Notes: a model not told the origin generated them from the sequence alone. 33,983 nucleotides of DNA from Deltaproteobacteria bacterium (GCA_019312835.1 JAFDCJ010000103.1:1-33983), one strand, 5' to 3'. Counted from the stretch's first letter, positions 7,126-19,609 are shown. Translations and numbers: made by a program.

Positions 7126-9168
7126 ATGGAAACCGAAAACCAGCGGAACATCACTAGCCGTCAATCCCAACCAGAAGCGGAACCAACAGCCTCCGGCCAC
7201 CGAATCCGGCTGCGCGCCATTTTGCTGGGCTGCGCTCTGGCCCTTGCGATCTGCCTGATTACACCCTTTAACAATGCCTACCGGCAGGGGACGCCCCTGG
7301 CGGGCGGACATTTTCCCCTGGCCCCGTTTTATTTTTTCATGTGGCTGGCGATAGTTACCGTTTTCATTCGATGGCTGTTCAAGGGCCGGAATCTGCTGAC
7401 CGGCAAAGAACTGCTGGTGACCTGGGCCCTGATGGTGCTGCTGTCCGGGATTGCCTGGACCGGGTTGGCGCGGACTTTTTTCATTAACATAACCGCCCCC
7501 TATCACTTCGCATCGGTCGAGAATCGCTGGGAGGAAGTGTTATACCCGCTTTTGCCCAAAAGCTGGTATCCCCAGAGTCAGGAAGCGATCGCCGAATTTT
7601 ATAACGGCGTGACCGGGGGCAGGCAGATGGGCTGGCTGGAGGTTTTAGGCCAGATCCCCTGGGACGCCTGGCTGGTGCCACTGGTCGGCTGGGCCGGTTT
7701 CGTCCTGCTGTGTTATATCGTAATTGCCTGCGTGGTCAGCCTGTTGAGCAAACAGGGCCTTTACAACGAACGCATGAATTTTCCGCTGTTGCGGGTTCCG
7801 CTGTTGATGCAGGAAGCCATCGACAACAACGAGCTGGGGCAGTTTTTTGCCAATCGATTCTTGCTGGCCGGGCTCCTTATACCGGTATGCCTGCATTTGA
7901 TGAACGGGCTTAATTTTTACAACCCCTCCATTCCGTCGATTCCCACGTTGATCCTGGCCGGAAAATATTTTCCGAAACACGGCTTTTTTTCAGGCTTTTA
8001 CAAGCTGAAAATCTATATTTACCCGGCCTTCATCGGCTTTGCCTTTTTAACTTCCAAGCAGATATCCTTTTCTTTCTGGTTGTTCTATATTGTCGGTGCG
8101 GTGCTCATCGGTTTTTTGTTCTCTTTAGGTTTGAATATACCGGAAGCCGCCCTGGGCGTTACCTTCGGCCCAACCCTCTCCCGGCCCGAGGAAATGCAGA
8201 TGGTCGGTGCCTATCTGGTGTTCTTTGTCTTTCTGGCCTGGCTGGCCCGGTTTCATTTTCTTGATATTCTGCAAAAAGGGTTTGGCCTTAAAGAAGATAA
8301 AGATGCAGAGCAGGAATGGCTGTCGACCCGGCTGGCTTTCTGGGGGGCCGTCGGCGGCGGGCTGGCCATCGTCGCCTGGTGCCACTATTTCGGACTGCCG
8401 TTTTTGTTTTCCTTTCTGGTGGTGGGGGCGTTTTTCCTGTTCACCCTGGTGGCCACCCGGGTGATTTGCCAGGGTGGAATTGCCTATTTTACGCTGACGG
8501 CTGCGCCCCTTGACGGCGTCATTGCTTTTTTTGGCACCCGATTTTTCTCAGGGGTTGGCCTTGTGGTCGCCGGCGTGGTTCAAAAATTGCTCTTTGTCGA
8601 TTTACGCGAGTCGCTGATGGCCTCCCTGCTGCATGCGCGCAAGGTTACCGACAAGACCACGAATAACCGCCGGATCTTCACGGTGATCATGCTAACCCTG
8701 GTTGCGGGGGTCGTTGTGTCCTTTCTGGCCATGCTGGTGCTTTGCTACAAATTCGGCGTGCGCGAACTCGGTCTGGACTGGGCCACCCGGACAACCGTGG
8801 CTGTCTACGATGACATCTACAGCCTTATCGAATCCCCCGCCGAACCCAGCCAGTGGGTTACGATATTCACCCTTGCCGGCGCCGTTGTGATGCTGTTGCT
8901 GGTGATCTGCTACCACCGGTTTTACTGGTGGCCGATCCATCCCATCGGTTATCTGACCGCCTACAGCTCCGCCATGCGAATTCTCTGGTTCAGCTTCTTC
9001 ATCGGCTGGCTTTTCAATGCCTTGTGCATACGTTACGGCGGCGTGATGTTGTTTAAAAAGCTGCGCAATTTTTTTATCGGATTGGTCATCGGAGATTTTC
9101 TCATGGCCGGTTCCTGGGCCATCTATGGGCTGTTTAGTTATTCCAGCTATCTGGTGCTGCCGAACTGA
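7126..9168 (+). CDS. DUF6785/DUF6784 polytopic membrane protein, OPT-like
   Basis: A 680-aa inner-membrane protein with about a dozen hydrophobic helices. The N-terminal part (about 30-580) matches my memory of the DUF6785 family. The tail from about residue 600, beginning WWPIHPIGY and containing RYGG and KKLRNFF, matches DUF6784. The segment NERMNFPLLRVPLLM (214-228) corresponds to VEKLPFPMAPVAALG in the next gene and to the Pro-rich signature of OPT-superfamily oligopeptide transporters. An extracytoplasmic loop near 125-180 is rich in Trp and Pro. It lies about 100 bp after the giant ABC permease and about 110 bp before the OPT-like gene, same strand. Transport of a peptide-like substrate is inferred from the fold only. 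Confidence 0.75.
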   Translation: METENQRNITSRQSQPEAEPTASGHRIRLRAILLGCALALAICLITPFNNAYRQGTPLAGGHFPLAPFYFFMWLAIVTVFIRWLFKGRNLLTGKELLVTWALMVLLSGIAWTGLARTFFINITAPYHFASVENRWEEVLYPLLPKSWYPQSQEAIAEFYNGVTGGRQMGWLEVLGQIPWDAWLVPLVGWAGFVLLCYIVIACVVSLLSKQGLYNERMNFPLLRVPLLMQEAIDNNELGQFFANRFLLAGLLIPVCLHLMNGLNFYNPSIPSIPTLILAGKYFPKHGFFSGFYKLKIYIYPAFIGFAFLTSKQISFSFWLFYIVGAVLIGFLFSLGLNIPEAALGVTFGPTLSRPEEMQMVGAYLVFFVFLAWLARFHFLDILQKGFGLKEDKDAEQEWLSTRLAFWGAVGGGLAIVAWCHYFGLPFLFSFLVVGAFFLFTLVATRVICQGGIAYFTLTAAPLDGVIAFFGTRFFSGVGLVVAGVVQKLLFVDLRESLMASLLHARKVTDKTTNNRRIFTVIMLTLVAGVVVSFLAMLVLCYKFGVRELGLDWATRTTVAVYDDIYSLIESPAEPSQWVTIFTLAGAVVMLLLVICYHRFYWWPIHPIGYLTAYSSAMRILWFSFFIGWLFNALCIRYGGVMLFKKLRNFFIGLVIGDFLMAGSWAIYGLFSYSSYLVLPN

Positions 9169-9278: not shown

Positions 9279-11240
9279 ATGTACGAAGACAAGGAACTGC
9301 AGGAATACAGAGATCTTCTGAAGACGCCCGATCATTTTGAGGAAGGATTCGATTGGAAAACCTTTGTGGGTGCAATTTTTATCGGGTTTCTCATGATGCC
9401 CGGCAGTATGTACCTGCAGCTGGTTATCGGCACCGGAATCGGACCGGCGGCGCGCTGGGTAACCATTATTTTGTTTGCCGAGCTTGCCAAGCGATCCTAC
9501 AGTCAACTAAAGCAGCAGGAGATTTTTCTTCTGTATTATATGGCCGGGGCCGCGCTGGCAACACCGTTTCAGGGCCTGTTGTGGAACCAGTACCTGGTCC
9601 AGTCCGATGCCGCCCGGATGCTGGGATTAACCGAATTCATCCCCACTTGGGTTGCGCCGGCACCGGATTCGGCCTCGCTGGTGGAGCGAACCTTTTTTCA
9701 CCGGGATTGGCTGATCCCCATTCTCCTTCTGGTGGGAACCCAGATAATTCAGCGTATTGACCAGTTTGGCCTGGGGTATGTATTTTACCGAATTACCTCC
9801 GATGTCGAGAAACTGCCGTTTCCGATGGCACCGGTGGCAGCCCTGGGCACGATGGCATTGGCCGAATCAACCGAAGAAAAAGACAAAAGCTGGAAATGGC
9901 GCGTTTTTTCTATCGGGAGTGTGATCGGCCTTGTTTTTGGCGGCATATACGTTTTATTGCCGACGGTTTCCGGTCTGTTTTTGATGGAGCCGATTCGACT
10001 GATTCCCATTCCCTGGGTGGAGCTGACCGGCCACACCGAAGAGGTGCTGCCGGCGGTCGCGACCGGCATTCAGTTTGATCTCGGGCTGGTGTTTATCGGG
10101 ATGGTCCTGCCGTTCTGGGCCGTTATCGGCGGCCTGGCGGGGCTGATTATCACCGTCATCGCCAACCCGATTCTGTACCGCCACGGCATTTTAAATCGAT
10201 GGCATCCTGGCATGGGAACTGTCGACACCATTTTTGCCAACAATTTCGATTTTTATCTGAGTTTTGGTATCGGTCTGGGCTTGGCGATTGCGTTGATCGG
10301 TGTCTGGCACGTCATGCGATCTTTCGGTAATCGCGGCGGCAGCCAGCAGGGCAGCCTGAAGGATTTATTTCGACCGCCACCGGGCAGGGGAGACTTCAAT
10401 TTTTGGATTGGGGTCGGCATTTACGTTTTTTCCACGGTATCATACGTTGTCCTGTGCGTGTGGCTGGTTCCCAATTTCCCGGTGGCCTTTTTTCTGGCCT
10501 ACGGGTTTATTTACACGCCCATCGTTTCCTATATTACAGCACGCATGGAAGGTATTGCCGGTCAGTTTGTGAGTCTGCCGCTGGTCCGGGAGGCCAGCTT
10601 TATTGCCGGCGCCAAGTATTTCGGCTATCAGGGCATCGAGATCTGGTATGCGCCGATACCGATTCATAATTATGGGGAGGCCACCGTAAAATTTCGCGAA
10701 ATCGAGCTGACCGGCACCAGCATTCGCGGAATCATAAAATCTGAAATTGTGGTCTTTCCGGTTGTGATGGTCGCCAGCCTGCTCTTTTCCCAGTTCATCT
10801 GGCGCCTGGCCCCCATTCCTTCCAGTGCCTACCCCTATGCCCAGGAACTATGGCACCTGCAGGCCCTGAATACCCTGTTGATGCAAACATCCACCCTGGA
10901 GGGAAATTCGCTGTTTTACCAGGCCCTGAACTGGATTTATGTCCTGGCCGGCGTCGGTCTGGGGGTGGTCACTTACGGGGTGCTGACCCTTTTCGGCCTG
11001 CCGGTTATGCTGGTCTACGGGATGGTGCGCGGGTTGGGCCAGAGCGCCCCGCACGGTCTGATACTGGAAGTGGTGGGTGCCCTGCTGGGGCGTTATTTTT
11101 TCCTGAAAAGATACGGCGCCATGTGGCGGCAGTATGCACCGGTGCTGCTGGCCGGTTTTTCCTGTGGCATGGGGCTGACCGGCATGTTCGCCATGGGGAT
11201 TACCCTGATTTTAAAATCCCTCGGACGGCTGGCGTATTAG
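9279..11240 (+). CDS. OPT-superfamily-like membrane transporter
   Basis: A 653-aa polytopic membrane protein with a short charged cytoplasmic N-terminus (1-26) and many hydrophobic helices. The sequence KLPFPMAPVAALGTMALAE (178-196) resembles the Pro-rich pore signature of oligopeptide/metal-chelate transporters of the OPT superfamily. Layout parallels the preceding gene: a helix beginning QEIFLLYYMAG, an extracytoplasmic loop with conserved Trp and Pro (about 120-142), the FPM signature, and a C-terminal block with FFLKRYG. The two may form a heteromer or be paralogues acting in sequence; that is inference. Gap to the upstream gene is about 110 bp. A GGAT-containing weak ribosome site precedes the ATG. 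Substrate unknown. Confidence 0.72.
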   Translation: MYEDKELQEYRDLLKTPDHFEEGFDWKTFVGAIFIGFLMMPGSMYLQLVIGTGIGPAARWVTIILFAELAKRSYSQLKQQEIFLLYYMAGAALATPFQGLLWNQYLVQSDAARMLGLTEFIPTWVAPAPDSASLVERTFFHRDWLIPILLLVGTQIIQRIDQFGLGYVFYRITSDVEKLPFPMAPVAALGTMALAESTEEKDKSWKWRVFSIGSVIGLVFGGIYVLLPTVSGLFLMEPIRLIPIPWVELTGHTEEVLPAVATGIQFDLGLVFIGMVLPFWAVIGGLAGLIITVIANPILYRHGILNRWHPGMGTVDTIFANNFDFYLSFGIGLGLAIALIGVWHVMRSFGNRGGSQQGSLKDLFRPPPGRGDFNFWIGVGIYVFSTVSYVVLCVWLVPNFPVAFFLAYGFIYTPIVSYITARMEGIAGQFVSLPLVREASFIAGAKYFGYQGIEIWYAPIPIHNYGEATVKFREIELTGTSIRGIIKSEIVVFPVVMVASLLFSQFIWRLAPIPSSAYPYAQELWHLQALNTLLMQTSTLEGNSLFYQALNWIYVLAGVGLGVVTYGVLTLFGLPVMLVYGMVRGLGQSAPHGLILEVVGALLGRYFFLKRYGAMWRQYAPVLLAGFSCGMGLTGMFAMGITLILKSLGRLAY

Positions 11241-12395: not shown

Positions 12396-13277
12396 TTGAC
12401 TGATAATTGGAAACAACTCGCCTGGAACGGTATCCGCTGTGAGACACCGGTCCGATGGGATGTCCGGCAGATTGGGGCTCACCATCTAATACTTGAAGAT
12501 GAAACCGGACCGGTCATGGAGGTCAAGTGGGGGGCGGTGAAAGGGACGTTTTCCCACCGAGCCCACCTGAAAAGACTGGCCGCGCTGCAATCCAGACGGA
12601 ACCAGATCACGGTGGCCGAGTGGATCCTGCCGCCACCCTGGGAAAAGGCGTTGGCAGACTTTGAGGCCGGCGGATTCTTGTGGCAGAGTCCGGGGGCCAG
12701 CGGTCGAGGAGCCATCCTGTTCTGCACGGTTTGCCGCACCGCCACCCTGATACAATTTTTTGGGGATAGCTCGGTTGATCGCGAAAAGGTATTTCTGAAG
12801 ATTTTGAGATCTTTGCGGGATCACAGCCAGGATGGTTGGCTGCCGTGGTCAATTTTTGATATTCGGGCGATCCTGCCGCAGTCCCTTCAACTGCATCGGT
12901 TTCGGTTTGAAGCCGGCAACTTTGAACTCGCCTTTACAGCTGGTAGAGACCGCATTTATTTGCATCGCTGGGCCCCGGCAGCCGCCTTATTGGCCGGCCG
13001 CGATCTGGTTGCCTTTGCCGGAACCATTCCAGAATTTGCCAGGGGCACGCCGCGGCCGACGACGCTTAACGCTTGTGAAGCTGTCGAATGGGAAGAAAGG
13101 CCCGCCAACAATTGGTGGCGCAATCTGGATCGGTTCAAAAAAAAGCCGTCGTTTTTTTTCTTTTGCTTGTGGTATCTGGAAAAGCAAAATCGAATTCTGG
13201 GCCTTCGGGCCGAAGGCAAGGGCCCGCTTGATCTTCAGCTGGTGAAACAGATTTATGAGCATTATGAAAGTCTTTAG
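12396..13277 (+). CDS. Uncharacterised protein upstream of a PqqD-like gene
   Basis: A 293-aa soluble protein with no signal peptide and unusually many aromatic residues. I do not recognise the family. Near residues 245-265 it has a basic-hydrophobic patch containing FKKKPSFFFFCLWYLEK. The only start near the 5' end is a TTG at 12396; an in-frame TGA lies just upstream, no clear ribosome site is visible, and the first internal ATG is about 40 codons in, so the N-terminus is uncertain. The reading frame overlaps the PqqD-like gene by 23 nt, which suggests translational coupling and a joint role. Continuous coding character over 880 bases makes it a real gene. Confidence 0.7.
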   Translation: MTDNWKQLAWNGIRCETPVRWDVRQIGAHHLILEDETGPVMEVKWGAVKGTFSHRAHLKRLAALQSRRNQITVAEWILPPPWEKALADFEAGGFLWQSPGASGRGAILFCTVCRTATLIQFFGDSSVDREKVFLKILRSLRDHSQDGWLPWSIFDIRAILPQSLQLHRFRFEAGNFELAFTAGRDRIYLHRWAPAAALLAGRDLVAFAGTIPEFARGTPRPTTLNACEAVEWEERPANNWWRNLDRFKKKPSFFFFCLWYLEKQNRILGLRAEGKGPLDLQLVKQIYEHYESL

Positions 13278-13650
13278 GAAAAAGCCCGCGGCAGGTGGTA
13301 TGAACCGGTCGGAGGCTCTGGCGCGCAAACCGGTCAAAAGCCGGCATGTCACCGAAACCCGACTGGAAACCGGCGAGGTTTTACTTGAATACCCCTTGGC
13401 TGTGCGCCCATTGGTTGCCGCCGTGGCCAGGCGTCTGGGAAAGTCCCGAGAAGACCTGGTACAAATCAAAAAGCTGCAACTAGATACGCTGGGGACCTCT
13501 GTTTGGGACCTTGTGGACGGTAAATGCTCGGTGCGTCGTATTATACAAATCTTTGCCGAAACCCATCGGTTAGATAAAAAGGAAGCCGAGGTTTCCGTCA
13601 CTCAATTCATCCGTGAATTGGGGCGGCGCGGTCTGCTCGGCTTGCGGTGA
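13255..13650 (+). CDS. PqqD-like peptide-binding protein
   Basis: A 131-aa protein whose C-terminal ~85 residues fit the PqqD/RRE-type winged-helix fold: LDTLGTSVWDLVDG, then a helix with RRIIQIF, then a final helix ending ELGRRGLLGL. PqqD proteins bind precursor peptides for radical-SAM modification in PQQ and RiPP pathways. Here no radical-SAM enzyme, precursor peptide or PQQ gene is nearby, so the role is unknown. The N-terminal ~40 residues are basic and probably disordered. It overlaps the upstream unknown gene by 23 nt. Two in-frame ATGs (13255 and 13264) are possible starts. Confidence 0.72.
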   Translation: MSIMKVFRKKPAAGGMNRSEALARKPVKSRHVTETRLETGEVLLEYPLAVRPLVAAVARRLGKSREDLVQIKKLQLDTLGTSVWDLVDGKCSVRRIIQIFAETHRLDKKEAEVSVTQFIRELGRRGLLGLR

Positions 13651-13755: not shown

Positions 13756-14088
13756 CTAAAAGGATTCAAGGGCTTCCTCCATGGTGGCGACGATGGGCAG
13801 GAAAGAATCAAAACCTGCTATTTCGAAGACCTCCTTGACATAGTCCTGCATGGAGCAAAGCATGATGCGGCCATCTTCGCGCTTGATGGCCTTGGTGGCT
13901 TTTAATATTACACGCAGACCGGCGCTTGATATATAATCAAGATCCTTAAAATCAACCACCATGTTTTTTGATCCGTCGGATATCGCCTCGAATAGCTTTT
14001 GCTCGAATCCCTGTGAGGTATTTGAGTCCAGGCGACCGTTGAGCTTAAAGATATTGATGCCGCTTTGTTTTTCCTCAATGATTTCCAT
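13756..14088 (-). CDS. STAS-domain anti-sigma factor antagonist (RsbV/SpoIIAA-like)
   Basis: A 110-aa cytoplasmic STAS protein. Such proteins bind an RsbW/SpoIIAB-type kinase when unphosphorylated, freeing the kinase's other target. The conserved segment DLDYISSAGLRVILKA contains the phosphorylatable serine (Ser55 by alignment with SpoIIAA, or Ser54). Length is normal for the family. GGGAGGA sits just upstream of the ATG. It is the last gene of a - strand cluster, about 110 bp after the RsbW-like kinase gene, which is its obvious partner. A PP2C phosphatase able to reactivate it is encoded upstream in the same direction. Confidence 0.92.
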   Translation of the reverse strand: MEIIEEKQSGINIFKLNGRLDSNTSQGFEQKLFEAISDGSKNMVVDFKDLDYISSAGLRVILKATKAIKREDGRIMLCSMQDYVKEVFEIAGFDSFLPIVATMEEALESF

Positions 14089-14200: not shown

Positions 14201-14632
14201 TTAGGTCTCTTCGGAACTTATCTTTTTTTTCAAGTTTAGCACGTTTTTATCTTCACATCTTTCGTAGCAGATCTCGTCCATCAACTTTTTCATGATGTGA
14301 ATTCCCAATCCGCCGATTTTGCATTTCTCCACAGAACAGGAGACATCAGGGCTTTCAAATTCGATGGGATTAAAAGGCTTGCCGTCATCCTCGATACACA
14401 GGCAGAGTTGATCATTTTCAGGTGTGAGCGTGATCCTGACGAGGTGTTCCTCATCATCTTGAAAGCCATAGGAGATAATATTGGTGAACAACTCGTCTAA
14501 GGCAAGGTTGATCTCAAATATAAGCTTTTTGGAAAGACCGAATTGTTGGCCGAAGGTTTCCAGATTCTGGCAGAGTCTATCCAATTCGGACAGGTCGCTT
14601 TTGAGTTCAAATGAATACGTGTTTTTCGCCAT
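14201..14632 (-). CDS. RsbW/SpoIIAB-like serine kinase (HATPase)
   Basis: A 143-aa GHKL-type ATPase of the anti-sigma kinase family. The N-box contains Glu47 and Asn51 in ALDELFTNIISYGF, the G1 box is EDDGKPFNP (81-89) and the G2 box is GGLGIHIMKKL (107-117). Such kinases phosphorylate a STAS antagonist and sequester a sigma factor or other partner. The STAS gene lies directly downstream and a cyclic-nucleotide-binding-like gene directly upstream. No sigma factor gene is in the window, so the output target is unknown. A GAGG ribosome site precedes the ATG. Confidence 0.9.
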   Translation of the reverse strand: MAKNTYSFELKSDLSELDRLCQNLETFGQQFGLSKKLIFEINLALDELFTNIISYGFQDDEEHLVRITLTPENDQLCLCIEDDGKPFNPIEFESPDVSCSVEKCKIGGLGIHIMKKLMDEICYERCEDKNVLNLKKKISSEET

Positions 14633-14740: not shown

Positions 14741-15265
14741 TCAAATAAGGGTTACGCCCAATTGGTTCAAACATTCGCCGCATTGATCGCCACGATTCGA
14801 AAGGAATCGCTCTTCCCAGGTATCGATGCTCTTGGCTACGGCGTTGAATATCTTGGCCAGCAAACCTGGGAACTGCTCCATGGTTTTGGAAAATTTTTCA
14901 CGGTTTAGCACCAGACAGGTTGTTTCGGTGGCCGACTTCAGCGAAAACAGGCGCTTGGTCTCCCCCAGCAAGGTCAGGCCGCCGATGAACTCGCCGGTTT
15001 TGTATTCTCGAACTCCGATTGTTTCGCCGTTGTCCCGGCGTTCCAGTCGGGCTTGGCCGCTGATGATATAAAACGCCTGGCCGTCGTCTTCATCCTGGCT
15101 GAAAATGTATTCGTCCTGCTTGAACTTTTCTCTGGAACAAAGATAAGCGAAAACCTTAAGGGTTTCAAGTGGTAGTCCAGAGAAAAAATAGATTTGTCGC
15201 AATAGCTCCAGATTTTCCTCGAATTCACTCGACGGTGTCGAGTTATTTTTTTCCAACAAGCTCAT
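14741..15265 (-). CDS. Cyclic nucleotide-binding-like (CRP-fold) protein without DNA-binding domain
   Basis: A 174-aa protein with one cNMP-binding-type beta-barrel (about 28-135). The phosphate-binding cassette reads FIGGLTLLGETKRLFS (93-108): the Arg is kept (Arg105), but the Glu that usually contacts the ribose is Gly96, so canonical cAMP binding is doubtful. No helix-turn-helix follows; the tail is a helix ending in CGEC (162-165). It therefore looks like a sensor or adaptor, not a transcription factor. The start overlaps the end of the ABC exporter gene by 23 nt and has an AAGGAA ribosome site, implying translational coupling. Confidence 0.85.
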   Translation of the reverse strand: MSLLEKNNSTPSSEFEENLELLRQIYFFSGLPLETLKVFAYLCSREKFKQDEYIFSQDEDDGQAFYIISGQARLERRDNGETIGVREYKTGEFIGGLTLLGETKRLFSLKSATETTCLVLNREKFSKTMEQFPGLLAKIFNAVAKSIDTWEERFLSNRGDQCGECLNQLGVTLI

Positions 15266-17756
15266 ACAGCATTCCTTTCCGGGCCATCAACTCATCATAA
15301 GTGCCCATTTCAAGAATTTTGCCGGCTTTCATGACCGCCACCTTGTCGAAGTTTTTAATGGTATCCAATCGGTGTACAACTGAAACCACCGTGCTTTTTT
15401 TCTTCCAGCGGGTTTCCAGCAGGTTCTGGATACGGGCCTGGGATCTGTTATCCAGGGCGGACGTTGCCTCATCCATAATTAAGATTTTCGGTTCCTTGAG
15501 AAACACCCGCGCGATGGCCAGTTTTTGTTGCTGACCACCGGACAATTTATCGCCCTTCGTACCAACCTGATAGTGCATTCCGATTTCAATAATTGTTTCC
15601 AGAAGATCCTCCTCGATTAACAACTGGATGATGCTCTGGTTGATTCGCTCCTGGGCCTGGGGATTACCGGTCTTGGTTTTACCAAAGAAAATATTGTTCA
15701 GGATCGTCTGGGAGTAGATATATTCCGACATCTGGATAAATGTAAAAGCTTCCGGATCATCCTTGGAGATGTTCTCCCTGAAGAGGGCCCGCCCCTCGAG
15801 GATCAAGGTTTCCAGGATTTCCGGCAGGGCCGCCATTTTATGCACACCGGGGGTGAAGCGCAATGCCAGCTCCAGCAGTTTACGGTGATCGCCATCCTCC
15901 AGTTCATGCAGTTTCTTCCTTTTCAGGTGCTCTACCAGTACCTTAAAATCGTCCAGTTCATCGGCATTGATCGGGCTTTGCTCGAAAAATACGGCATCCG
16001 GCGGCAGATTGCCCAAAATATCGACGGTTTGCCGGCACAGCGTCACACCTAAGCTGAGTAAAGGTCGGGTCAGGTCCGCGGTTTTCAGAAACCGCAGAAA
16101 ATAGTTGTTGCGCGACAGGTTCTCGTCGCTAAAGTCGCTTTTGTTGGGAGCGCCAAACGTCAGGTTCTCGGCCACACTGGAATAGTAAAGATACTTATTT
16201 TCGTTAAAAAACTCGACATAATCCGCCAGGTCCTCCCCGTAATCCCGCTGAAAATTTTTACGAACCTTGACGATCGTGTTTACCAGCGCTTCATTTTTTT
16301 CATGGGTGAGGATTGCGTTCAAACCAAAGCGCAACACATCCACGAAAATACCGGTTTGATGCAGGACCGCAATGACATCGTCAAGGGACGGCCGCTGTTC
16401 TTCCCCCCCCCGGCCGTTGCCGTCCAATTTAGCCAGGCTGGAATAAAGAATGTTTTCCTCGATGGTGCCGTCAAATATAAACGGGCTCTGGGCGACAAAG
16501 CCGATGTTATTGACCATGTCCTTTTTGGTCAGATCCGATACTTCTTGATTGCCGATCAGCACGCTGCCGCCGGTGTATTTGTAGAGTTGGCCGATACACA
16601 TGGCCAGGGTGCTTTTACCGCTGCCGGAAAAACCCACCAGAGCCAGATGCTCGCCTTCGGTCAGGGATATGTTGATGCCGTCGAGCAGGCGAATGCCGGT
16701 GTTGGTGACAAAGGATAAATCCCGCACCTCAACGTCGCCCGCCAGCTGCATCGGCTCACGGTCTTTGGGCTTAAGCGCGTGCTCGGGTTCAACGTCAAAA
16801 TATTCCATGGTGCGTGTGTAGTTGATCTTGCCGTCCTGGTAGACCTGATAAAATTCGATCAGCTCTCTCCAGGGTTCAAACAGGCGTTCCTGGGCAGATA
16901 AAAAAGCCACCAGGGCACCCAGTTCCAGTTGGCCCTTGATGGTTAGATAACCGCCCAGGACAAAAACCAGAAAAGGCCCCAGGCTGGTGAAAAACCCGTT
17001 AGCGGTCTTAACCGCAAACCGGTAAAGGCTCCAGACGATCCTGATTTTCAGCAGCCGGTCCACCAGCGAGTCATATTTGCGGTTTTCGATGTCGTAGGCA
17101 CCGTTGCCGTGAATTTCATGGACACCGGAAATGGATTCCGCAATGCGGGCGGAGAATTTTCGGGCCGCATCGACGCGCTTCTTGTTGGCCTTGTTGACCC
17201 CTCTTTGGAGCAGCGGTATGAGAAAGACGACGATAGGGTAAATACTCAGCGATACCGCCGCCAGAAGGGGATTGAGCCAGAAAAGGTAGACGGCGAAAGC
17301 CAGCAGGGTCAGGAGGTTGGTTACCGGGCTGGCCACCGCCATACCCACAAAGTTGCCGGGCAGGGTCAGTTCATTGGTCAGGGCATTGACCACCGTTCCG
17401 GGCTGGGTTTTTCTGAAAAAGTTCAATGGCAGCGTCAAGATATGGTGGTAGAGAGCCTTGCGCATGCGCGCCGTGGTGCGCTGGCTGATGAGGGTTTGGA
17501 TGACGTTGGTCACATATTTTAGCAGGCTGAAAAAAACGACCGCCGCCAGGTAAATACCGCAATACATCAGCAGCAAGTCAAGGTTGCGCAGTTTGACAGC
17601 TTCATTGATGACGCGCTTTTGCATTTCAAGGGGCAATACCCTGGCCCCCACCATCACAATGATGACGATCAAAAGCAGTATTTGATATTTGAGGTTGCCG
17701 GCGAATATCCAGGAAAATAGAGACCGCTTAACAATAGGGGGTTCAGATTTTGCCAT
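15243..17756 (-). CDS. ABC exporter (fused permease/ATPase) with a large NBD insertion
   Basis: An inner-membrane exporter half-transporter of 837 aa. Numbered from a GTG five codons earlier, the transmembrane domain spans about 30-310, Walker A is GFSGSGKST (380-388), Q-loop Gln428, signature LSGGQ (743-747), Walker B ILIMDE (763-768), D-loop SALD (771-774) and His800. All catalytic motifs are intact. Family members normally have about 100 residues between Q-loop and signature; here there are about 315. The extra part holds two more segments resembling the post-Q-loop element: YLYYSSVAENLTFG (527-540) and YIYSQTILNNIFFG (684-697), after FIFDGTIEENILYS (431-444). The ATG at 17756 has GAGGGAG upstream, unlike the GTG at 17771. 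It heads the cNMP-RsbW-STAS gene series. Substrate unknown. Confidence 0.9.
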   Translation of the reverse strand: MAKSEPPIVKRSLFSWIFAGNLKYQILLLIVIIVMVGARVLPLEMQKRVINEAVKLRNLDLLLMYCGIYLAAVVFFSLLKYVTNVIQTLISQRTTARMRKALYHHILTLPLNFFRKTQPGTVVNALTNELTLPGNFVGMAVASPVTNLLTLLAFAVYLFWLNPLLAAVSLSIYPIVVFLIPLLQRGVNKANKKRVDAARKFSARIAESISGVHEIHGNGAYDIENRKYDSLVDRLLKIRIVWSLYRFAVKTANGFFTSLGPFLVFVLGGYLTIKGQLELGALVAFLSAQERLFEPWRELIEFYQVYQDGKINYTRTMEYFDVEPEHALKPKDREPMQLAGDVEVRDLSFVTNTGIRLLDGINISLTEGEHLALVGFSGSGKSTLAMCIGQLYKYTGGSVLIGNQEVSDLTKKDMVNNIGFVAQSPFIFDGTIEENILYSSLAKLDGNGRGGEEQRPSLDDVIAVLHQTGIFVDVLRFGLNAILTHEKNEALVNTIVKVRKNFQRDYGEDLADYVEFFNENKYLYYSSVAENLTFGAPNKSDFSDENLSRNNYFLRFLKTADLTRPLLSLGVTLCRQTVDILGNLPPDAVFFEQSPINADELDDFKVLVEHLKRKKLHELEDGDHRKLLELALRFTPGVHKMAALPEILETLILEGRALFRENISKDDPEAFTFIQMSEYIYSQTILNNIFFGKTKTGNPQAQERINQSIIQLLIEEDLLETIIEIGMHYQVGTKGDKLSGGQQQKLAIARVFLKEPKILIMDEATSALDNRSQARIQNLLETRWKKKSTVVSVVHRLDTIKNFDKVAVMKAGKILEMGTYDELMARKGMLYELVGKK

Positions 17757-18166: not shown

Positions 18167-19609
18167 TTACAAGAGTTTAACCACGACCAGGGTGACATCG
18201 TCTTCCTGGTCGGCGGTTCCCCGAAACTGATTCAGCCCTTCGATCACGGCGGTTTGGATGGCAGCGGCCGATGCGGTTGAATATTGGGCGACGGTTTCCC
18301 TCAGACGGTCCAGGCCGAACATTTCGTTCCTGGCATTGCGGGTTTCCTGGATGCCATCGGTGCCGACCACCAGAACACTTCCGGGGGCCCAGCCCCGGGA
18401 ACTATATTGTCGATATTCATAATCGGCATCAACGCCCAGGACCATTCCTTCCCCCGTCAGGTTTTCGAATCCGTTTTGGGCCGGATCATAGAGCAGGGCC
18501 GGTTCATGTCCGGCGCGTACCCAGCTCAGCTTTTTAACGGCGACATTGATTTCCAAAAAAAACATGCTCATAAACCGGCTTGTCTTCGCGCTGTCCCGGG
18601 TCAGGGCCTGATTGATATCGGCGGCCAGTTTGGCCGGGCCCTGATAGTTGTTTACGCCGGATATTAAAAAGGCCCTGGCGGTGGTCATCAGCAGGGCGGA
18701 GCCGACCCCGTGATCGGAAGCATCCGCAACCACCACGCCCAAATTTTGATTGGGCAGCTTAAAAAAATCGTAATAATCGCCACCTGTTTCGTCGCAATAG
18801 ATGCTGGTGCCGGTCAGCTCGAGTCCGGGATGCTCCGGTGCGGTTGCCGGCAATAGATTTTGTTGAACCTCCTCGGCCAGCTTCAACGCCGTGATCAGTT
18901 TGGTGCGATGCCGGAGTCCCTGGATCATCGAGTTGGTGTGTCCGGCGATCAGGCCGAATTCGTCGCGGGTGGCGACCGGCACCGTGCGCGAGAGGTCACC
19001 CTGGCTGACGCGCTCCAGGACATCGGTCTGGTTGTTGAACAAAAGTCTCAAATTCCTGGAGTAGGATACAATCAGGTTGACCACCAGAGCCAGCAGGACG
19101 GTCATGATGAAAAACATTTCCTTGGCCACCGACCATTGGGCCTTGGCAAGAGCGGCTGCGTTCTGTTCGATTCTGGACAGCCAGACAATATCCCGGCCGA
19201 ACACCAAAACCACAATAGCCGTTACAAATATCGCGGTTGTAAAGGCCACCAGGGAAAACCTGCGGGTCATGGAATACAGCCGTTGCGGCGGCGGGAGTGT
19301 GCCGGACTGCGAAACTGCATTGTTGATGTTGGCCCGCTCCCGGGCCAGGGCCGTGTCCAGCGCCAGAAAAAAGCCCAGGATAAGGCCACCGAAGAGGACC
19401 GCGTATCCGTTGATGAGGGGAACCGCCAGAAGCGCTCTGTTCAGCGCCATTACCACAGCGGCAGCCACCAGGCATAAAACCAGGTCCATCACAAACTGGC
19501 GCTTGGGCTGGTCGGCCTCAGTCGCCGCCAACACAACCCTTTGCTGCACATAGGGGCGCAGCGCCAGGACAGCCAGGAAGCCGAAAAAAACGATTACCCC
19601 CAGCGTCAC
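18167..19609 (-). CDS. Membrane HAMP-PP2C serine phosphatase (SpoIIE/RsbU-like)
   Basis: A 480-aa frame from a GTG start. Membrane helices lie near 2-20, 42-61, 66-84, 120-137 and 165-182; a HAMP linker spans about 186-240 and a PP2C SpoIIE-type phosphatase domain about 265-480. Metal-binding acids are visible: Asp278 in GGDYYD, Asp296 in VADASDHG, Asp418 in GTDGIQE and Asp470/471 in EDDVTL. Such enzymes dephosphorylate RsbV-like STAS proteins, and one is encoded downstream on the same strand. The GTG has no good ribosome site. In the same frame upstream, 29 sensible codons from an ATG at 19723 are followed by a TGA (19634-19636), so the true protein may be 518 residues if the stop is read through or is an error. 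Confidence 0.85.
   Translation of the reverse strand: MTLGVIVFFGFLAVLALRPYVQQRVVLAATEADQPKRQFVMDLVLCLVAAAVVMALNRALLAVPLINGYAVLFGGLILGFFLALDTALARERANINNAVSQSGTLPPPQRLYSMTRRFSLVAFTTAIFVTAIVVLVFGRDIVWLSRIEQNAAALAKAQWSVAKEMFFIMTVLLALVVNLIVSYSRNLRLLFNNQTDVLERVSQGDLSRTVPVATRDEFGLIAGHTNSMIQGLRHRTKLITALKLAEEVQQNLLPATAPEHPGLELTGTSIYCDETGGDYYDFFKLPNQNLGVVVADASDHGVGSALLMTTARAFLISGVNNYQGPAKLAADINQALTRDSAKTSRFMSMFFLEINVAVKKLSWVRAGHEPALLYDPAQNGFENLTGEGMVLGVDADYEYRQYSSRGWAPGSVLVVGTDGIQETRNARNEMFGLDRLRETVAQYSTASAAAIQTAVIEGLNQFRGTADQEDDVTLVVVKLL

Follow-up and report, generated by a model that had tools for sequence, protein, structure and literature searches.

What fills the long interval between the Q-loop and the signature motif of an ABC exporter encoded by a Deltaproteobacteria bacterium, and what might it serve? 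The question concerns the helical subdomain, the ABC-specific part of the nucleotide-binding domain (NBD), which carries the signature, couples ATP use to the membrane domain and normally occurs once per NBD. The exporter gene lies within a stretch of 33,983 nucleotides, hereafter referred to as the window.

Exporter locus and length of the insertion

The features discussed below are listed by position in the window.

13756-14088, minus strand: STAS anti-anti-sigma-type protein (PF01740, E 1e-22; TIGR00377 above cut-off)
14201-14632, minus strand: RsbW-like serine kinase/anti-sigma-type ATPase (PF13581, E 1e-27)
14741-15265, minus strand: stand-alone cNMP-binding-fold protein, 174 aa (PF00027, E 2e-15, sole Pfam match)
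15243-17756, minus strand: ABC exporter half-transporter gene, 837 aa, ATG at 17756; membrane domain at about residues 20-320 (PF00664, E 7e-35) and one NBD (PF00005, E 7e-28, two stretches)
15531-15545, minus strand: signature LSGGQ, residues 738-742, intact as read from the sequence
15546-15821, minus strand: copy R3, residues 646-737 (RxxF helix, strand 671-673, YIYSQTILNNIFFG, helices)
15822-16037, minus strand: non-repeated 72-residue segment, residues 574-645 (QTVDILGNLPPDAVFFEQSPI...LLELALRFTPGVHK), following copy 2
16038-16292, minus strand: copy R2, residues 489-573 (RxxF helix, strand 514-516, YLYYSSVAENLTFG, helices)
16296-16496, minus strand: copy R1, residues 421-487 (Q-loop with Q423, PFIFDGTIEENILY, helical subdomain)
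16608-16634, minus strand: Walker A GFSGSGKST, residues 375-383, likewise intact
18167-19609, minus strand: SpoIIE-type PP2C phosphatase with MASE10 and HAMP (PF07228, E 4e-40; PF20970, E 9e-21)

The exporter has the layout of type IV exporters (ABCB/MsbA-like), in which ABC_membrane is followed by one NBD in a single chain. The Pfam ABC_membrane match covers residues 30-293 and ABC_tran extends from residue 358 onward, in two separate stretches, the pattern that an insertion into the NBD would produce. The remaining exporter motifs, i.e., the Q-loop (Q423), Walker B (ILIMDE) and the H-loop (H795), are all present, and outside the variant stretch from Q-loop to signature the chain is ordinary. 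Pfam reveals no C39 peptidase, giving only ABC_membrane, ABC_tran and a weak, sub-threshold SMC_N match (E 1e-6), which is most likely due to NBD motifs common to both. The protein stays below the cut-off of every NCBIfam model listed, the best similarity being to MsbA.

From Q423 to L738, the first residue of LSGGQ, the exporter measures 315 residues. The comparison set of five ordinary exporters, one from Sinorhizobium and the other four from the source genome, has 56 residues from the Q-loop Gln to LSGGQ and 104 from Walker A to LSGGQ, so that the excess amounts to about 259 residues. A first-pass annotation of this DNA had counted the 315 residues correctly but set them against a usual value of about 100, a figure that belongs to the stretch from Walker A to the signature. 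A homologue search yielded full-length proteins carrying the same insertion; among 44 of them the interval ranges from 314 to 323 residues, with many invariant positions. With 44 full-length homologues and an insertion of near-constant length, a pseudogene or an assembly artefact was rejected.

Three copies of the helical subdomain

Three motifs, PFIFDGTIEENILY, KYLYYSSVAENLTF and EYIYSQTILNNIFF, each with a [FY][IL][FY] start (residues 426, 522 and 679), recur between the Q-loop and the signature. Each is associated with an Asn (Asn435, Asn531 and Asn688) that is invariant in 47/47 aligned homologues, Rhizobiales included. The first-pass annotation had recognized the three segments and their Asn at the right places but numbered the starts 431, 527 and 684, a shift of +5 that arose because residues were counted from an upstream GTG (842-aa ORF) and not from the ATG at 17756. 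Self-alignment, a check proposed there, is clear in the single sequence for copies 1 and 3 (score reached by 1/2000 shuffles) and copies 2 and 3 (0/2000) and marginal for copies 1 and 2 (296/2000).

Because single-sequence self-alignment is too weak for the latter pair, profiles of the copies were built from the 47 homologues and compared using hhalign. All pairs are related: probabilities are 92.5% for R1-R2, 93.1% for R1-R3 and 98.45% for R2-R3 (E ~4e-15, more than 80 columns). A profile of five ordinary exporters matches R1 (98.5%, E 2e-15), R2 (93%) and R3 (89%, all 66 columns). In each of the six profile comparisons, 0/60 column-shuffled controls reach the real score. Moreover, when the insertion profile is compared with PDB sequences, the R1 end and the R3 end both align to the Q-loop-to-signature stretch of solved exporters, and the R3 profile covers the Q-loop-to-LSGGQ stretch of Ste6, MsbA and PglK chains.

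These matches define the repeated unit as the Q-loop strand plus the helical subdomain. The NBD thus contains three tandem diverged copies of this unit, and homologues keep them. Multiplication of the entry to the helical subdomain, as originally proposed, is strongly supported by the profiles and extends to the whole subdomain; the repeated element, which had been taken to be 14 residues long, measures about 65-95 residues. A single canonical helical subdomain is usual, though not strictly defining, for type IV exporters; here there are three. It is the canonical helical subdomain that the copies resemble, and an SMC/Rad50-type coiled-coil insert was rejected on that ground. R2 and R3, each preceded by an RxxF helix, are more closely related to one another than either is to R1, a pattern consistent with two successive duplications. 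R3 ends in a VGxxG loop that runs into the signature. Residues 580-645, located between R2 and R3, resemble neither the repeats nor canonical NBDs in profile comparisons (<1%).

Structure predictions were obtained using AlphaFold2 with an input alignment of 45 homologues, rhizobial rows being left out. The full chain is modelled with a pLDDT of 83.9, which rises to about 90 over most of the insertion, and its best fold matches are type IV exporters. The insertion alone adopts a confident fold (pLDDT 89.8, pTM 0.82), for which Foldseek returned no PDB match at E<=0.001. Unrelated folds and lack of conservation were the two observations that, according to the first-pass annotation, would refute multiplication; neither was observed. 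In the model, copies 2 and 3 feature the same order of long helix, strand, short helix, strand and helices, with the strand-helix-strand core at a constant offset of 157 residues, and the insertion is kept among homologues.

Partner genes and distribution of the family

The three-copy architecture spans Desulfobacterota and Alphaproteobacteria. A scan of the genome collection identified 48 loci, all in Desulfobacterota/Deltaproteobacteria records, and the insertion profile is present in 28 of the 395 Desulfobacterota genomes drawn. The range beyond Desulfobacterota rests on the plasmid collection, in which homologues were found in Rhizobium, Sinorhizobium, Phyllobacterium, Shinella, Mesorhizobium, Azospirillum, Tritonibacter, Methylobacterium and others. 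No relatives of the exporter were found in the phage collection. Catalytic motifs are intact in every Desulfobacterota row aligned.

In contrast, the Walker A Lys, the Walker B acidic residues, the signature and the H-loop His are wholly or largely lost in the alphaproteobacterial proteins that were read, which form a separate clade in the tree. All three copies persist despite this decay, and the cNMP partner is mostly kept. Their product is full-length (903 aa), with about 64% identity between genera. Being full-length and conserved across genera, these homologues do not look like decaying genes. The rhizobial branch, widespread among the plasmids of rhizobia, resembles a pseudo-ABC transporter in which everything but the ATPase has been kept. 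Examples with degraded motifs are L083:6423-9134, L084:6426-9140, L111, L112 and L113. Rhizobiales homologues often adjoin glycosyltransferase or FkbM methyltransferase genes, which hints at surface glycans, in the rhizobial branch only.

In the window, the cNMP-fold domain is not part of the exporter polypeptide but a separate 174-aa protein, in which Pfam detects no DNA-binding domain. The start codon of its gene overlaps the 3' end of the exporter gene by 23 nt. A cNMP gene is located directly downstream of the exporter in 62 of the 69 loci with at least 500 nt of downstream sequence, across two phyla, and this partner occurs throughout the exporter tree. In Azospirillum and Tritonibacter homologues, the cNMP domain is fused to the C-terminus of the exporter. 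A linkage that is nearly constant, together with two fusions, suggests that a separate sensor-like subunit controls the exporter directly.

The pocket of the cNMP protein, GGLTLLGETKRLFSL, has Gly in place of Glu and retains the Arg, and thus lacks the complete phosphate-binding cassette of the CRP type, represented in E. coli CRP by R82 and by E72, which contacts the ribose of the cyclic nucleotide. Most Desulfobacterota partners have Gly at the position of the pocket Glu (GGLxLL..RLFSL), and Rhizobiales partners retain the Glu (GEIAIL..PRTATV); its state by lineage is roughly the reverse of that of the ATPase motifs. Ligand binding is uncertain because the residue that contacts cAMP has been replaced. 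Judging from the pocket, the partner in the window may bind another nucleotide or none, and the signal sensed in this lineage is probably not plain cAMP. A precedent is HetC, an ABC exporter in which the cNMP domain is required for function and binds ppGpp, and in which no thermal shift of this domain occurs with cAMP or 2-oxoglutarate (PMC10986499).

The window also encodes a HATPase_c_2 kinase, a STAS protein and a PP2C phosphatase together, the gene set of a partner-switching system. The similarity of the 14201-14632 protein to NCBIfam RsbW is below the cut-off. RsbW and STAS genes are both found downstream in 37 of the 65 loci with enough flank, and these loci fall on one side of one branch of the tree, which includes the window's clade. 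Some members of the family have the SpoIIE-type phosphatase as an upstream partner. Other Desulfobacterota families and Alphaproteobacteria carry the insertion without RsbW/STAS; restricted to a single clade, the RsbW/STAS genes cannot be the reason the insertion arose, and they were rejected as its cause. Since the cNMP partner spans the tree and RsbW/STAS occupy one branch, the former is the old partner and the partner-switching module a later recruit.

Other neighbours were noted in passing. Two plus-strand genes, 12396-13277 and 13255-13650, converge on the operon and are kept beside it in most close relatives; one has no Pfam family above the cut-off and the other is PqqD-like. The same pair is found nearby, on either strand, in some distant relatives. 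The tandem large membrane proteins encoded at 7126-9168 and 9279-11240 (plus strand), one DUF6785/DUF6784 and the other without a Pfam match at E<=0.1, are unrelated to the exporter finding.

The non-repeated segment, residues 574-645, varies with the presence of the cNMP gene. Its conserved positions are kept at 0.77-0.94 in most cNMP-linked clades. In contrast, only 0.44 are kept in one four-member clade (L043, L044, L094 and L096), which is elsewhere conserved (0.92 in the membrane domain, 0.88 in the C-terminal part of the NBD). The cNMP gene is absent downstream in L043, L094 and L096; in L044, the sister of L043, the flank is too short to be scored. Within the insertion of this clade, the segment is eroded relative to the rest (0.44 vs 0.76, permutation p 0.004). 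The same test in five comparison clades was flat in four and revealed a weaker drop (0.49 vs 0.63, p 0.08) in the fifth, f47, which keeps the cNMP gene. As one clade represents one evolutionary event, the link is suggestive only. Directly upstream of the exporter, L043, L094 and L096 carry a gene for a HAMP-SpoIIE phosphatase, with overlapping frames in two of the three, which suggests that control may have passed to this phosphatase where the cNMP gene is lacking.

The source genome encodes a second three-repeat exporter (G000:C221:3431-5932, L088; 56% identity), located between antiporter-like and HSP20-like genes, with no adjacent cNMP, RsbW or STAS gene. Residues 574-645 are fully kept in this paralogue, which can be reconciled with docking only if the paralogue also uses the cNMP protein encoded in the window. 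The FF..SP motif is not kept in the fused Azospirillum and Tritonibacter proteins. On its conservation pattern, the segment is the best candidate docking site for the cNMP protein, with Q576, T577, L581, F590, F591, S594, E600, R633 and F634 as candidate contact residues. The first-pass annotation had suggested that the insertion docks the coupled regulators in general. For the cNMP protein this is plausible, given the 62/69 adjacent genes, the two fusions and the erosion; for RsbW and STAS it is not supported, as these are confined to one clade and the insertion occurs without them.

Possible roles of the insertion and known systems

The best explanation, to which we assign a probability of roughly 0.55, is that the tripled helical subdomain serves as a platform for a cNMP protein controlling the pump. 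R1 supplies the real Q-loop and R3 the loop into the signature, with R2 and the non-repeated 72-residue segment spliced between them. The exporter, for which export is predicted, would work as a homodimer with a normal ATPase motor, and R2 together with residues 574-645 would build up a platform in the cytosol, at the helical side of the NBD. The co-translated cNMP-fold protein may bind this platform and report a cytosolic signal. Once bound, it could restrain or promote rotation of the helical subdomain, the movement by which LSGGQ reaches the opposite ATP and the NBD is coupled to the membrane domain. SpoIIE/RsbW/STAS would have been recruited later, in the window's clade, presumably giving the pump or the subunit a second input.

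The helical subdomain of an ABC exporter normally receives the coupling helices, and precisely this part has been copied; moreover, all copies keep the core with its invariant Asn, as expected for a retained structural groove. The extra copies might, as the first-pass annotation had also suggested, enlarge the interface between the NBD and the membrane domain, through additional coupling helices or a dimer brace, with the cNMP protein acting elsewhere. We consider this unlikely, though worth keeping in mind, because the membrane domain (PF00664, residues 30-293) shows no matching enlargement relative to ordinary exporters, and the constant partner is a soluble cNMP protein whose presence is tracked by the non-repeated segment. 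The alphaproteobacterial homologues, which lost the ATPase motifs yet keep the three copies and mostly the cNMP partner in a conserved full-length product, would fit a non-transporting signalling or scaffold protein with a dispensable ATPase and the cNMP protein as its true input. These proteins form a clade apart, however, and the aligned Desulfobacterota proteins, that of the window included, have intact catalytic motifs, which makes such a role for the family somewhat less likely again.

Neutral expansion at a tolerant insertion site, with no specific role, appears very unlikely. Rad50 and SMC proteins also carry inserts between the Q-loop and the signature. The interval is a known site of long insertions in UvrA, RecF and RecN (PMC3688454). 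Neutrality is nonetheless disfavoured by the conservation of the insertion, the length of which stays within 314-323 residues with many invariant positions, and which outlasts the loss of catalytic motifs.

Beyond the platform reading, we tentatively propose a distinct architecture, in which tandem triplication built an allosteric platform for a dedicated cNMP subunit and the rhizobial assembly outlived its ATPase to become a dead, cyclic-nucleotide-linked membrane protein; the odds are slightly against this fuller account holding as a whole. A three-copy family spanning two phyla shows that the motor can be rebuilt from inside, and lets one ask, as in a natural experiment, which of the copies does the coupling.

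We know of no ABC transporter with a multiplied helical subdomain, and none was found in a limited search of the open-access literature. Type IV exporters such as MsbA, Sav1866, TM287-288 and TmrAB likewise combine one membrane domain with one NBD and intact motifs, but have one helical subdomain, with 56 residues from the Q-loop Gln to LSGGQ, in place of three copies and a 72-residue insert. In UvrA, RecN, Rad50 and SMC proteins, the long insertion at the same place, from Q-loop to signature, is a coiled coil or an unrelated domain; in contrast, the insert described here lies within a membrane transporter and is built from copies of the helical subdomain already present. As in RsbW/SpoIIAA/SpoIIE modules, the window's clade encodes a kinase, a STAS protein and a PP2C phosphatase next to the exporter, but these genes are missing from other insertion-bearing branches, and no sigma factor target was identified. 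HetC and the peptidase-containing NHLM/NHLP exporters are likewise ABC exporters tied to a cNMP-fold domain. In HetC this domain is N-terminal and accompanied by a C39 peptidase, whereas here no peptidase was found, the NBD is enlarged, and the cNMP domain forms a protein of its own, encoded downstream, or, in Azospirillum and Tritonibacter, a C-terminal fusion. Insertions at this site and exporters with a cNMP domain, such as HetC, are thus already known; what appears to be new, as far as the papers searched go, is the multiplied helical subdomain in an ABC transporter.
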